64,000 nt of DNA from Chelativorans sp. AA-79 (GTDB lineage: Bacteria > Pseudomonadota > Alphaproteobacteria > Rhizobiales > Rhizobiaceae): contig NZ_CP120361.1 of the NCBI RefSeq assembly GCF_029457495.1, positions 124,001-188,000 of the forward strand, in the 5' to 3' direction. The position numbers were made by a program, and so were the translations under genes. This document shows positions 11,628 through 36,424 of this stretch, one piece after another. How positions within the stretch are numbered: the stretch's first letter is position 1; every line of letters starts with the position of its first letter. The notes beneath the pieces are model-generated. The model saw nothing but the letters and a program-made list of their open reading frames with translations, searched no databases and was not told where the DNA came from.

Positions 11628-11703
<76 letters not shown>

Positions 11704-31374: not shown

Positions 31375-32694
31375 CTATCCGCCATGAATCAGCTTGTCCT
31401 GACGGGCCCGGAGTTCGGCAATCTTCGACCCCGCGGGCGGAGCGGCATTTTCATAGGTGAGAAGCTCGCCCTTGCCGACCGGCTTGAGAACCCGCCCGCC
31501 CTCCAGGAGGCCGCAGGGTACCGCTTTCGCCGCTCTTGCTTCCCCGGCCTGCATGATCCAGGCGCGATAGGAATATTCACCGATGGCGTCAAGCTTGTCG
31601 CCTGGCTTCAGGTCTTTCTTGGCCACCGCGCAAACCTCCGCCACCGGCCTAGCGAGCGGCACCATGTCGGCCTTGCCGTGGAGCACCACACGCGCGCAGG
31701 TGAGCGGCACTTCGAGAGACGTAAGATGATAGGGCCGATGGAAAGTGAAATAGGGGCCCTCGCCCATCTTGAGGTCCTCCATGCGCTCGCGGATGCGCGG
31801 ATGGGACATTTCCGCGATCACGAACACACCGGGTGCAACCCCTTTGCCGATCGAATAGTCCACCACGCCGCTGCGCGAAAGTATACCGCCATCCCTTTCC
31901 GGGATGAGCGTCCTGTTGAGTTCGCCGAGCGTAGCGGATGGACCGTGCATGCCGGGCCTGTCGGGCACGAGGCCGGTGGCGTTGGCTATTGCGGCCATCT
32001 CGACCATGGTCTTCGAGCCGTCGACGAACTCCACCAGCATGCGCACATTCATGTTTCGGCGCCGCGCTTCCTCGGCATAGTCGTCGGGGACGGCGCAGAT
32101 ATTGAGCGGGTTGTTCTTGCCCTTGCCTGCTGCGACAATCGGGTGGCCCATGGCGGAAACGAACTCGATCAGTTCCATGCACGCGGAAGGCTCGTCGCCG
32201 GCTCCCAACGAGTACGTGACGCCCAGACGGTCCGCTTCGCTCTTCAGATAGGCGCCGATGGTTACATCCGCCTCGACATTCATCATGACGAGGTGCTTCC
32301 CGTGCTCCATCGCCCGAAGGCCGATTTCCGCGCCGACGGCGGGAACACCGGTGGCGTCGACCACCACATCGATCAGGTCGCTTTCGATGATCCGGCTGGC
32401 GTCCGGCGTGACGGCGATCTTTCCGGCCTCGATCGCGCGTGTCATGGCGAGAGCACTGTCCACGGCCGTGGCGTGGCCGTCCTCCCGATAGGCGATTTCG
32501 ACAGCGATGAGTGCGGCTTCGGGTCGCAGCTCCGAGATCGCACCGATTTCTATTCCCCTCATATGCGCCACTCGGGCGACGATATCCGTTCCCATTTCGC
32601 CCGAACCGATCAGACCGATTCGGACAGGTTTTCCGGAATTCGCGCGTTCTTCCAAGTCTCGCGCGAGGCCAACCAGCGCAACATTGGTCGCCAT
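31375..32694 (-). CDS. COG4091-type NAD(P)-dependent oxidoreductase with SAF domain
   Basis: A 439-residue protein with an N-terminal Rossmann fold (RIGLIGSGEMGTDIVARV, about residues 25-42) like homoserine dehydrogenases and a C-terminal SAF-type domain (AVAKKDLKPGDKLDAIGEYSYRAW). The group is annotated as 'predicted homoserine dehydrogenase' or 'NAD(P)H-dependent oxidoreductase'. Several members act in carbohydrate or polyol catabolism, but the substrate here is open. The start at 32694 is selected for the GGGAGG 9 bases upstream. The region from 31132 to 31374 between it and the araC gene is AT-richer and holds no gene. Confidence 0.8.
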   Translation of the reverse strand: MATNVALVGLARDLEERANSGKPVRIGLIGSGEMGTDIVARVAHMRGIEIGAISELRPEAALIAVEIAYREDGHATAVDSALAMTRAIEAGKIAVTPDASRIIESDLIDVVVDATGVPAVGAEIGLRAMEHGKHLVMMNVEADVTIGAYLKSEADRLGVTYSLGAGDEPSACMELIEFVSAMGHPIVAAGKGKNNPLNICAVPDDYAEEARRRNMNVRMLVEFVDGSKTMVEMAAIANATGLVPDRPGMHGPSATLGELNRTLIPERDGGILSRSGVVDYSIGKGVAPGVFVIAEMSHPRIRERMEDLKMGEGPYFTFHRPYHLTSLEVPLTCARVVLHGKADMVPLARPVAEVCAVAKKDLKPGDKLDAIGEYSYRAWIMQAGEARAAKAVPCGLLEGGRVLKPVGKGELLTYENAAPPAGSKIAELRARQDKLIHGG

Positions 32695-32823
32695 TGAATG
32701 CAAACCTCCCGAAACGGTCACAGCGTTGTACGATCGTTAATGGGCCGGGAGCCGAGCCGCCGTCAAGAACGGCGCCATGCTGCGGTGCGACAGAATTGCA
32801 CGGCTGACATGCAAAATGGCCCT

Positions 32824-32852
32824 TTAAACGGCACCGCGGCCAGCCTATGTAA
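32824..32852 (+). promoter_or_regulatory. Weak candidate promoter of the sRNA
   Basis: TATGTA (32847-32852) is a fair -10 element; 17 bases upstream is TTTAAA (32824-32829), a poor -35. The predicted start (about 32,859) lies directly before the first hairpin of the sRNA. Confidence 0.3.
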
Positions 32853-32858
32853 CCGCCA

Positions 32859-32982
32859 AGTTCTCGACGAGGTTCTTCCCTCCTCCCAATCCTCGTCGAG
32901 CCGCGGTCAGCCCATCCTCCTCCCGGGCTGACCGAACCAAAAGGCACCCGTCGGATCTCCTCCCCCGGCGGGTGCTTTTTTG
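32859..32982 (+). ncRNA. Probable alpha-r14 / 'cuckoo' family small RNA with three anti-SD hairpin loops
   Basis: There are three consecutive stem-loops. (1) CTCGACGAGG (32864-32873) pairs perfectly with 32891-32900; the loop contains CCTCCTCCC. (2) CGGTCAGCCC (32904-32913) pairs perfectly with 32925-32934; the loop contains CCTCCTCCC. (3) The stem at 32944-32954 pairs with 32965-32975 (one G-U), with CTCCTCCC in the loop, followed by six T (32976-32981) as an intrinsic terminator. CCUCCUCCC in hairpin loops is the hallmark of alphaproteobacterial 'cuckoo' RNAs (alpha-r14), which are thought to compete at Shine-Dalgarno sites. The length of about 120 nt also fits. The 5' end is estimated. Confidence 0.8.
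32944..32981 (+). terminator. Intrinsic terminator ending the sRNA
   Basis: The stem GCACCCGTCGG/CCGGCGGGTGC, with one G-U pair, is followed by six T. It is the third hairpin of the sRNA and also insulates the glycosidase promoter downstream. Confidence 0.85.
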
Positions 32983-33081: not shown

Positions 33082-34713
33082 ATGCAGCACACGTCCCGTC
33101 CGGGCCAGATCGCGAAGACACATTCCGAAACCGAACCATGGTGGCAGCGCGGGGTCATCTATCAGGTCTATCCGCGTTCGTTCCAGGACAGCGACGGCGA
33201 TGGGATCGGCGATCTGCGCGGCATCATAGACCGGCTCGATTACCTTGTCTGGCTGGGGGTCGACGCAATCTGGGTATCGCCCATCTTTCCTTCGCCGATG
33301 GCCGATTTCGGCTATGACATCGCAGACTACCGCGGCATCGATCCGCGCTTCGGCACGGTGGCCGACTTCGACCGACTTCTCCTGGAGGCGCATCGGCGCG
33401 GCCTGCGGGTGCTGCTCGATTTCGTGCCCAACCATACTTCCGACCGTCATCCCTGGTTTCTGGAATCCCGTAGCTCGCGCCAAAATCCCCGGCGCGATTT
33501 CTATCTCTGGCACGATGCCGCTCCTGATGGCGGACCGCCGAACAACTGGCGGAGCGAGTTCGGCGGCAGCGCCTGGCAGTGGGACGAACACACGGGCCAA
33601 TACTACTATCACGCATTCCTGAAGGAGCAGCCGGACCTCAACTGGCGCAATCCGCAGGTGCGCCGGGAGATGTATGACATATTGCGCTTCTGGCTCGACA
33701 AGGGAGTGGACGGTTTTCGGGTGGATGTCATGTGGCATCTCATCAAGGATGCCGAATTTCGCGACAACCCGCCAAATCCCGACTGGACGGAGGAGATGCC
33801 GCCGCACAAGAAAGTGCTCCCGCTCTACTCCACGGATCAGCCGGAGGTGCACGAAGTCGTCTCCGAAATGCGTGGGGTGCTCGAGGAATACGGGAGCGAT
33901 CGGCTCCTGATCGGCGAAATCTACCTGCCCGTCGCCCGCCTCGTCGGCTATTACGGCCGCGATCTGCGCGGCGCGCATTTGCCTTTCAATTTCCATCTCA
34001 TCCAGGCTCAGTGGGACGCGCGGCATATCGAGCGCCAGATCGCCGAATACGAGGCAGCCTTGCCGGAGGGTGGCTGGCCGAACTGGGTGCTGAGCAACCA
34101 CGACAAGCCGCGCATCGCAGCCCGGGTCGGGCGCAAGCAAGCACGGGTCGCCGCCATGATGCTGCTTACTCTGCGCGGCACGCCCACGATCTACTACGGC
34201 GACGAAATCGGCATGGACGACGTCCCGATCCCTGCTGACCGGGTACAGGACCCCTTCGAAAGGCGTGTCCCCGGCAAAGGCTTCGGGCGGGATCCGCAGC
34301 GCACCCCGATGCAGTGGGACAGGGGCGCGAATGCCGGTTTCACCATTGGTTCGCCCTGGCTGCCTCTCGCGTCGGACCGGGACAAATTCAATGTAGAGGC
34401 GGAGCGGGAAGATCCCCGCTCCGTGCTGGCCCTCTATCGTCGTCTCCTGGGCTTGCGGCGCAAGCGCGACGCGCTCGCCATCGGCCGATACGCCGCGGTT
34501 CAGGCGTCAGGCAACATGCTCGCCTATCTCCGTGAAACGGAAGAGGAGCGCTATCTGGTCGCGCTCAACCTGGGGGCCGAGCCTGCCGCTCTTGAGCTTC
34601 CCGGACCGTGCCGCATCCTGGTCAGCACCGAAAACAGAAAAGAAGGCGAGCCTATCGCCGGCAAGCTCGACCTTGCCGGGAACGAAGGTGTGCTGGCCGA
34701 AATGGCCGAGTAG
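33082..34713 (+). CDS. Glycoside hydrolase family 13 protein (alpha-glucosidase type)
   Basis: A 543-residue (beta/alpha)8 enzyme acting on alpha-glucosidic bonds. All GH13 regions are seen: DFVPNHTSDRH (region I), GFRVDVMWHL with the nucleophile Asp (II), LLIGEIY with the acid/base Glu (III) and SNHDKPR (IV). It starts WWQRGVIYQVYPRSFQDSDGDGIGDL, typical of oligo-1,6-glucosidase/alpha-glucosidase. No secretion signal, so it acts in the cytoplasm, possibly on trehalose-related or storage oligosaccharides. The start at 33082 follows the exact EcfG promoter, implying stress induction. Confidence 0.88.
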   Translation: MQHTSRPGQIAKTHSETEPWWQRGVIYQVYPRSFQDSDGDGIGDLRGIIDRLDYLVWLGVDAIWVSPIFPSPMADFGYDIADYRGIDPRFGTVADFDRLLLEAHRRGLRVLLDFVPNHTSDRHPWFLESRSSRQNPRRDFYLWHDAAPDGGPPNNWRSEFGGSAWQWDEHTGQYYYHAFLKEQPDLNWRNPQVRREMYDILRFWLDKGVDGFRVDVMWHLIKDAEFRDNPPNPDWTEEMPPHKKVLPLYSTDQPEVHEVVSEMRGVLEEYGSDRLLIGEIYLPVARLVGYYGRDLRGAHLPFNFHLIQAQWDARHIERQIAEYEAALPEGGWPNWVLSNHDKPRIAARVGRKQARVAAMMLLTLRGTPTIYYGDEIGMDDVPIPADRVQDPFERRVPGKGFGRDPQRTPMQWDRGANAGFTIGSPWLPLASDRDKFNVEAEREDPRSVLALYRRLLGLRRKRDALAIGRYAAVQASGNMLAYLRETEEERYLVALNLGAEPAALELPGPCRILVSTENRKEGEPIAGKLDLAGNEGVLAEMAE

Positions 34714-34727
34714 GCGCAGCCACGCCC

Positions 34728-34752
34728 GGAACGTTCCCGCAGCAAGCGCGTT
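34728..34752 (+). promoter_or_regulatory. Exact EcfG-type promoter of the second GH13 gene
   Basis: GGAAC (34728-34732), 16 bases, CGTT (34749-34752), in the 79-base gap between the two GH13 genes. Predicted start about 34,759, 34 bases ahead of the ATG at 34793. Confidence 0.65.
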
Positions 34753-34792
34753 GGCCCGCAGGTTCTTCGGATATCAGCGACGTTAAAGGCTC

Positions 34793-36424
34793 ATGGATAA
34801 ATGTTGGTGGAAGGATGCGGTCATCTATGCCGTCGACGTGGAACGCTTCTTCGATTCCGACGGCGATGGAATCGGTGATTTCAAAGGGCTCGCATCGAAG
34901 CTGGGATATATCTCCGATCTTGGTGTGACCTGCATCTGGCTGATGCCCTTCTATCCCTCTTCGGGAAGGGATAACGGGTACGATATCACCGACTACCTGC
35001 GCGTAGACACACGCTTCGGCCTCTTCGAGGACTTCCTGGAATTCGTGCACCGGGCGGGAGAGTACGGAATCCGTATTGTCGTCGATCTCGTGGTTCACCA
35101 TACGTCGACCCAGCATCCCTGGTTTCAGGCCGGCAGGCATAACGAGTCGTCGAGCTACAGGGACTATTACGTGTGGACGCACAATCCTCCGCCGACTCCG
35201 CCCGGCAAAGGCACCATTTTTCCTGGCGAGGAGGAGACGGTCTGGACCTATGACGACGTGGCGCGCGCCTATTACCACCATCGCTTCTATCACTTCGAAC
35301 CGGGGCTGAACCACGCGAACCCCGAGGTGCGCGCTGAGATCATCCGCATTGTGGATTACTGGTTGAGTTTCGGAGTAGCAGGATTCCGCGTGGATGCCGC
35401 TTCGCATATCGAAGAGGACCCCCTGTCGAAAACGGGCAAGGAGCAGACCTCACCCGACGTGCTGAGAGAGATTTACGACCGCGCGTCGGGTTTCAAGTCC
35501 GACGTGGTGCTTCTCGGCGAAGTCGACGAAACACCTGAAAAACTCGAAAAGTTCTTCGACGGCACACGGTTGGACATGATGTTCAACTTTCTGCTCAACT
35601 GCCACATGATGCTTTCCCTGGCTTCCGAAACGGCAGAGCCCCTGCAGCGCGGGCTCGCGTTACAGCCAGTGCCGCCGCCGAACGGCCAGTGGGCCAACTT
35701 CCTGCGCAATTTCGACGAGGCCGACCTGGAGCGGCTGTCGCCGCAGGAACTCGAATTCGTTCTCGATCGTTTCGCGCCCGACGAAAGAATGCGCATCTAC
35801 GATCGCGGGATCAGAAGGCGCCTCGCTCCCATGCTGGGCGGAGATCCCCGGCGGATAAAAATGGCGATGAGCCTTCTCTTCTCCATGCCGGGCGCGCCGC
35901 TCGTTGTCTATGGCGACGAAATCGGCATGGGAGAGGACCTTTCCCAGGATGGGCGCAATTCCGTGCGCTCGCCGATGCAGTGGACCGGCGGTCACAACGC
36001 CGGCTTCTCCTCGGCCCAGAAGAACAAGCTCGTGCAGGCTGTGATCGAGGACGGCCCTTTCGGCTACGGGAAGGTCAATGTCGAAGCCCAGACCCAGGAT
36101 AAGGATTCACTGCTGTCCTTCGTAAAGAAGCTGGTGAAAATCCGCCGCCAACGCATCGAGATCGGTTCCGGGTTCTGTGCGTTTCTCGAAAGCGGTTCGG
36201 ATCACGTCCTGGCACACCATTACAAGTCCGAATTCGCACCTTTGGTACTGCTGCACAACCTCAAGGGTGACGAGGCGGAGGTAAACGTGCCGCTGCCTCC
36301 CGGCGCAACGAGATTGGCGGCGCTCGTGGGAGACGAGCCGCCAGCCGTTGAGAACGGCCGCCTGCGGCTCACACTCGAACCTTATGGCCTGCGCTGGTTT
36401 GGTCTGCCGCATGAGGGAGGCTGA
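34793..36424 (+). CDS. Glycoside hydrolase family 13 protein (trehalose synthase-like)
   Basis: A 543-residue GH13 enzyme with the trehalose synthase-like opening WWKDAVIYAVDVERFFDSDGDG. Region I DLVVHHTSTQHPW, region II GFRVDAASHIEED and region III LLGEVDETPEKLEKF are intact. Region IV reads FLRNFDEADLERL instead of the usual FLRNHDE, so the conserved His is Phe (residue 307). The Asp after it is kept. No signal peptide. It has its own exact EcfG promoter, and with the first GH13 gene it may adjust trehalose or maltose pools under stress (inferred). Confidence 0.85.
   Translation: MDKCWWKDAVIYAVDVERFFDSDGDGIGDFKGLASKLGYISDLGVTCIWLMPFYPSSGRDNGYDITDYLRVDTRFGLFEDFLEFVHRAGEYGIRIVVDLVVHHTSTQHPWFQAGRHNESSSYRDYYVWTHNPPPTPPGKGTIFPGEEETVWTYDDVARAYYHHRFYHFEPGLNHANPEVRAEIIRIVDYWLSFGVAGFRVDAASHIEEDPLSKTGKEQTSPDVLREIYDRASGFKSDVVLLGEVDETPEKLEKFFDGTRLDMMFNFLLNCHMMLSLASETAEPLQRGLALQPVPPPNGQWANFLRNFDEADLERLSPQELEFVLDRFAPDERMRIYDRGIRRRLAPMLGGDPRRIKMAMSLLFSMPGAPLVVYGDEIGMGEDLSQDGRNSVRSPMQWTGGHNAGFSSAQKNKLVQAVIEDGPFGYGKVNVEAQTQDKDSLLSFVKKLVKIRRQRIEIGSGFCAFLESGSDHVLAHHYKSEFAPLVLLHNLKGDEAEVNVPLPPGATRLAALVGDEPPAVENGRLRLTLEPYGLRWFGLPHEGG

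Follow-up and report, generated by a model that had tools for sequence, protein, structure and literature searches.

The window, a stretch of 64,000 nucleotides from the Chelativorans sp. AA-79 genome, carries a small RNA locus (Table 1) whose product is, by its covariance-model match, an ordinary and well-conserved member of the ar14 family (alpha-r14, or cuckoo RNAs). It is very probably an NfeR1-like, trans-acting ar14 RNA that is transcribed from its own promoter under activation by LsrB and represses mRNAs with strong Shine-Dalgarno sites. This regulatory reading extends known biology to Chelativorans and opens no new field, while the ar14 locus itself is now well supported in the genus, with covariation. 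In the available portions of the small-RNA literature, a Chelativorans strain is named only as carrying a homologue of a Paracoccus sRNA candidate.

Table 1. The ar14 locus with its neighbours (window coordinates), and the further box sites and ar14 matches in the same genome (contig coordinates).
Feature	Position	Strand	Basis or remark
Left neighbour, divergent oxidoreductase (DRL_cat, NAD_binding_3)	31375..32697	-	Pfam, tblastn
Conserved 29-nt block (TGC...TTGCA...TGCA) upstream of promoter	32785..32813	+	Orthologous upstream alignments
Palindromic box TTGCA-N2-GCTG-N3-TGCAA, candidate LsrB/VtlR site (box site 1)	32796..32814	+	Resembles published consensus
Putative -35 element CTTTAA	32822..32827	+	17 nt before -10; 14/14 orthologues
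Putative -10 element CTATGT	32845..32850	+	14/14 orthologues
ar14 small RNA	32859..32981 (start possibly 32857-32859)	+	RF02344, 91.5 bits
Hairpin 1, 10 bp perfect	32863..32900	+	Stem 32863-32872/32891-32900; loop CCTCCTCCC at 32879-32887
Hairpin 2, 10 bp perfect	32904..32934	+	Stem 32904-32913/32925-32934; loop CCTCCTCCC at 32916-32924
Hairpin 3 and intrinsic terminator	32944..32981	+	Stem 32944-32954/32965-32975, 11 bp, one G-U; loop CTCCTCCC at 32957-32964
Right neighbour, alpha-amylase family enzyme	33082..34713	+	Pfam, tblastn
Box site 2	C1:2026916		84 nt before RF00519 (suhB, AbcR-like) match, directly after LysR gene
Box site 3	C1:2949051		233 nt before ar14 copy of DUF1127 operon
Box site 4	C1:3028471		No gene assigned
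ar14 copy	C1:2949302		97.8 bits; starts 8 nt after DUF1127 stop codon
ar14 copy	C1:2266104		60.2 bits
ar14 match below cut-off	C1:4611908-4612008 (L004 1501-1601)	-	49.4 bits; behind phasin gene
ar14 match below cut-off	C1:975489-975580 (L005 1501-1592)		37.8 bits; inside GapR-like protein frame (PF10073)

The match to the Rfam ar14 model (RF02344) spans 32859-32980 and all of the model (positions 1-123 of 123), with a score well above the gathering score of 58.8; the sole further Rfam match at gathering score in the window is a tRNA (11628-11700). This bears out the alpha-r14/cuckoo RNA of about 120 nt proposed in a preliminary description of the sequence, whose three hairpins in a row, loop motifs and closing run of six T are likewise confirmed (32863-32975 and 32976-32981). 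Its start at 32847 is probably too early: judged by the -10 element together with the extent of the Rfam match, the 5' end of the RNA is likely to be at about 32857-32859, some 10 nt further in. Other family traits are present as well, namely an anti-Shine-Dalgarno motif in the loop of each hairpin, conserved loops on variable yet paired stems, and multiple genome copies. The segment 32855-32982 has a folding energy of -64.3 kcal/mol, whereas its shuffles average -35.2; this corresponds to z = -7.85, with none of 200 shuffles folding as well.

The 8-mer CTCCTCCC begins at 32880, 32917 and 32957 in the locus, preceded by C in the first two loops, which completes the 9-mer CCTCCTCCC, and by T in the third. 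Taken singly it is no rarity in the window (5 observed versus 4.05 expected); spaced as CTCCTCCC-N5..40-CTCCTCCC, it gives nine matches in the genome versus none for the reversed pattern. Three ar14 copies, the window copy among them, account for six of the nine with two pairs apiece. The motif pairs at two other loci of this genome (L008 and L010) have no ar14-like fold, as judged without a choice of RNA strand, and no ar14 match at E 0.1 on either strand.

The preliminary description had singled out the motif in the terminator loop as an unusual extra, which was wrong: it is the family norm. The ar14 consensus returned by cmscan already has CCUCCUCCC in that loop, and published accounts of NfeR1 from Sinorhizobium meliloti and of its family place the motif in all three hairpins (passages in PMC10746234, PMC7143759 and PMC3927594). 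Matches to ar14 occurred in 45 of 61 genomes at E 0.001 and in 37 over the cut-off, 132 matches in all. Across all 92 over-cut-off matches, the terminator part holds CTCCTCCC in 80 and at least CCTCC in 91; the 8-mer is present three times in 73 of them, twice in 17 and once in 2. A special terminator loop is rejected on these three grounds, and the earlier idea is corrected accordingly.

Thirteen of the 16 genus genomes contribute 14 orthologous copies, which have the start of the RNA and most of the block upstream in common, and the named GTDB records that match the promoter-plus-RNA pattern of the locus are all Chelativorans (7/7 stretches, 6 genomes). In the RNA alignment of the 14, which includes a copy from G012 placed by hand, 97.3% of the cells are paired, both sides have changed in 11 of 29 pairs and all three stems covary. 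The covariation on which the preliminary description had made its reading depend is therefore present, and not one of 500 shuffles comes up to the alignment in covariation score, in percentage paired or in double-change counts; the count of further pair types in the 14 orthologues shows no excess over shuffles (198/500). When the partner is shifted by 1-3 columns, only 30-47% of cells pair. Loops 2 and 3 have cores that are invariant across the 14, and CTCCTCCC is present three times in 13 of the copies.

Genes flanking the RNA are less constant. Within roughly 1.5 kb on each side, the oxidoreductase adjoins it at 6 of the 14 orthologous loci and a close amylase homologue is found at three (tblastn; the window is among both), a fourth locus having an amylase homologue that is only 31% identical. 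Since so few loci keep either neighbour, the RNA is an independent unit. The same counts bear on the proposal that the RNA serves the downstream alpha-amylase gene as a leader or attenuator with a regulated terminator at its end. Its strand, shared with that gene, and its distance of about 100 nt from it would suit such a role, yet 11 of the 14 loci are without a close amylase homologue in the compared span and nevertheless keep the RNA with its -35 and -10 elements, and the third hairpin with its T run is found in all 14. We therefore reject the leader reading, which we regard as exceedingly improbable. Two alpha-amylase-like genes follow each other at 33082-36424 of the window, the first Pfam-confirmed and the second an open frame only.

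The independent unit has a promoter region of its own that is largely conserved. All 14 orthologues have CTT[TC]AA and [CT]TAT[GC]T at a distance of 15-18 nt, and the block upstream was aligned for 9 of the 14 loci in one alignment and for 13 (without G012) in the other. The box within this block, written as the pattern TTGCANNGCTGNNNTGCAA with 14 specified bases, is matched in full at the window locus. In the 200 nt upstream, with both strands considered, 13 of the 14 orthologues have a match of 10 or more bases, G006 reaching 8/14. At the same threshold, 46 of 74 upstream regions labelled non-DUF1127 and 0 of 18 labelled DUF1127 have a match, classes that are rough since the label is a regular expression that undercounts (18/92) and some 'other' rows end in DUF1127-like frames; shuffles averaged 8.7 and 8.4 bases in the two classes, with maxima of 13 and 11. 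Compared with the published VtlR/LsrB consensus, GCAT-N3-TG-N3-T (as given in PMC8844928 and PMC7486931), the window box has GCAC in place of GCAT.

The arrangement recalls the NfeR1 (Smr14C2) subtype, which is described with a sigma-70-type promoter and a conserved upstream element bound by LsrB, and for which an NtrC site is also reported. The window locus has a putative -35/-10 pair and an upstream TGCA-type element, both largely conserved, and the genome encodes an LsrB orthologue that may bind there. Like ar14 RNAs in general and NfeR1 in particular, the window RNA has three hairpins with the motif in all loops, the terminator included, variable stems, a length of about 123 nt and several genome copies; unlike them, it displays an 8-mer rather than the 9-mer in the third loop. 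According to sections of PMC10746234 and PMC8844928, LsrB activates NfeR1 and AbcR1 in S. meliloti and is indispensable for their expression, and the Chelativorans RNA is probably switched on by this same regulator.

Alternatively, the promoter could be served by the heat-shock sigma factor RpoH instead of an LsrB-activated sigma-70 holoenzyme. The sequences CTTTAAA and CCTATGT resemble the RpoH1 consensus CTTGAA-N16-CCTATAT (quoted in PMC8844928), and the CcsR RNAs of R. sphaeroides are described as having an RpoHI/HII promoter (PMC10253847). NfeR1, however, has the similar arrangement CTTAGAC-N17-CTATAT, which is reported as sigma-70 in PMC10746234, and the upstream box suggests an activator. 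We consider RpoH the less probable choice, though one with a real minority share. Sequence alone does not separate the two sigma factors at this promoter, which both of them may serve.

The case for LsrB activation also draws on the other places where the box occurs. With at most one mismatch, it has four sites in the 5.76-Mb genome, whereas the reversed-pattern control gives one match. The LysR protein encoded at the second site, beside an AbcR-like RNA, matches PDB 9HH1, described as the A. tumefaciens LsrB structure (PMC11975290), over its full length with 476.7 bits; as the next chain reaches only 124.8 bits, we take this protein to be the LsrB orthologue. An LsrB/VtlR gene beside abcR1 is the arrangement in Agrobacterium and S. 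meliloti as presented in PMC7486931 and PMC8844928. The RF00519 match behind this box scores 34.7 bits, below the cut-off of 41.

Across the 16 genus genomes, the box has 43 distinct sites (52 rows before merging of strands; the reversed pattern gave 17 rows, unmerged). Seventeen of the 43 precede over-cut-off ar14 matches, seven of them stand-alone copies at 41-45 nt and ten at 227-252 nt, and nine lie 81-84 nt before RF00519 matches; the remaining 17 are without an assigned gene. The seven stand-alone sites are circular, because the box pattern was first read off such ar14 upstream regions, while the ten DUF1127-type and nine RF00519 sites are independent. For the ten distant sites, the DUF1127 gene is assigned by Pfam in the AA-79 genome and by upstream frames of the same type elsewhere. 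All nine boxed RF00519 matches score below the cut-off (29.9-34.8 versus 41 bits), and stronger RF00519 matches in the same genomes are located elsewhere and have no box, so that the label AbcR1 relies on the published gene order beside LsrB, as confirmed in the AA-79 genome. With that qualification, ar14 and the AbcR-like RNA next to LsrB appear to have the box in common in this genus.

In total, 26 of the 43 strict box sites stand before stand-alone ar14 genes, DUF1127-plus-ar14 operons or AbcR-like RNAs, and the other 17 do not exceed the control, which also gave 17 rows. LsrB/VtlR in this genus could thus be almost dedicated to anti-Shine-Dalgarno RNAs, a tentative idea to which we give slightly less than an even chance; if true, an entire group of RNAs that block translation would be under one redox-sensing protein. 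The idea has been published in pieces for S. meliloti and Agrobacterium, where, in the accounts available, LsrB/VtlR also has direct or indirect effects on many further genes. One box common to three kinds of anti-Shine-Dalgarno RNA gene offers a simple, testable hypothesis of co-ordination and is the by-product of this analysis with the greatest use.

The window RNA has the same loop motif as the CcsR/CIN1 loci, in which a DUF1127 gene is followed by cuckoo RNAs (RF02791, CcsR1), and an operon of that type exists in this genome too, with the ar14 copy C1:2949302 behind DUF1127. Unlike CcsR/CIN1, the window copy has its own promoter and stands between an oxidoreductase and an amylase gene, with no adjoining DUF1127 gene, and the Rfam scan gave no RF02791 match to the window RNA at gathering score. 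AbcR1/2 (alpha-r15, in part RF00519) resembles it as an anti-Shine-Dalgarno regulator but belongs to another family and, as stated in a portion of PMC7143759, has two such motifs in S. meliloti.

We infer that the RNA is transcribed, that LsrB binds upstream of it, which mRNAs it targets and in which direction it regulates them, and propose the following mechanism. The LysR-type regulator LsrB/VtlR would bind the box at 32796-32814 and activate the sigma-70-type promoter CTTTAA-N17-CTATGT. The resulting RNA of about 123 nt would display the CCUCCUCCC-type motif in its three loops, all of them stable. Each loop could base-pair to a long Shine-Dalgarno site (GGGAGGAGG), blocking translation of the mRNA. 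A capacity to pair with Shine-Dalgarno sites had been suggested by the preliminary description, and the loop motifs support it on paper. Precedents come from NfeR1, which represses ntrB via its three motifs (according to parts of PMC10746234 and PMC8844928), and from VtlR, for which binding to the abcR1 and atu1667 promoters is described in PMC7486931.

Possible targets were sought through the pattern GGGAGGAG-N4..11-ATG, which has 56 sites in the genome versus 10 for the reversed pattern. Such an excess is expected in any organism that uses Shine-Dalgarno sites; the one-base variant GGGTGGAG is also in excess before ATG (19 versus 4). Among the first 30 of the 56 sites by position, 21 precede an open frame of at least 60 codons; 16 of these frames were scanned, all with a Pfam family, and the remaining five are short frames. 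Uptake components make up 6 of the 16 as a raw count (three periplasmic solute-binding proteins, an NMT1-like protein, an ABC-type permease and an ABC ATPase), and a FadL-type outer-membrane protein is a seventh candidate target. On these raw counts, the candidate targets are in line with the preference for mRNAs of transporters that has been reported for NfeR1 and AbcR.

Matches to ar14 number five in the AA-79 genome, which is 5.76 Mb long in 3 contigs: the search for further copies that the preliminary description proposed gives two more over the cut-off and two below. This multiplicity raises the prospect that the window copy is silent, since S. meliloti has six copies of which one is reliably detected, as reported in a section of PMC7143759. 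Against silence, base pairing, the -35 and -10 elements (14/14) and mostly the box (13/14) are kept across 13 of 16 genus genomes, so that silence is not expected, and we judge it quite improbable.

The two matches below the cut-off lie within or behind protein-coding genes. At C1:975489, two fully paired hairpins (one G-U each, judged by eye) with CCTCCTCCC loops are embedded in the GapR-like frame, and they may reflect chance, coding constraint or a hidden RNA, which are indistinguishable here. The match behind the phasin gene belongs to a wider pattern: 13 of the 132 ar14 matches follow a phasin (PF09361) domain on its own strand, starting 46-92 nt after the domain ends. They come from nine of the 16 genus genomes and from one genome each of four other genera. 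Ten of these 13 are below the ar14 cut-off and Pfam confirmation covers four, and their placement suggests cuckoo-type RNAs that form the 3' ends of phasin mRNAs. PMC7143759 mentions both phasin and cuckoo RNAs, its phasin passage concerning MmgR.

Some relatives have two to four ar14 copies in tandem (L100, L083, L036, L039 and L101), for example at G035:C23:266663-267184. Among IMG/VR viral contigs (L182-L235), the three-motif pattern is present in 54 contigs, with 55 occurrences and 32 distinct sequences, and a loose pattern picks out a VtlR-like string upstream of 32 of the 55. Several of this set are plain tandem or coding repeats, and the rest may be phage cargo or host flank.
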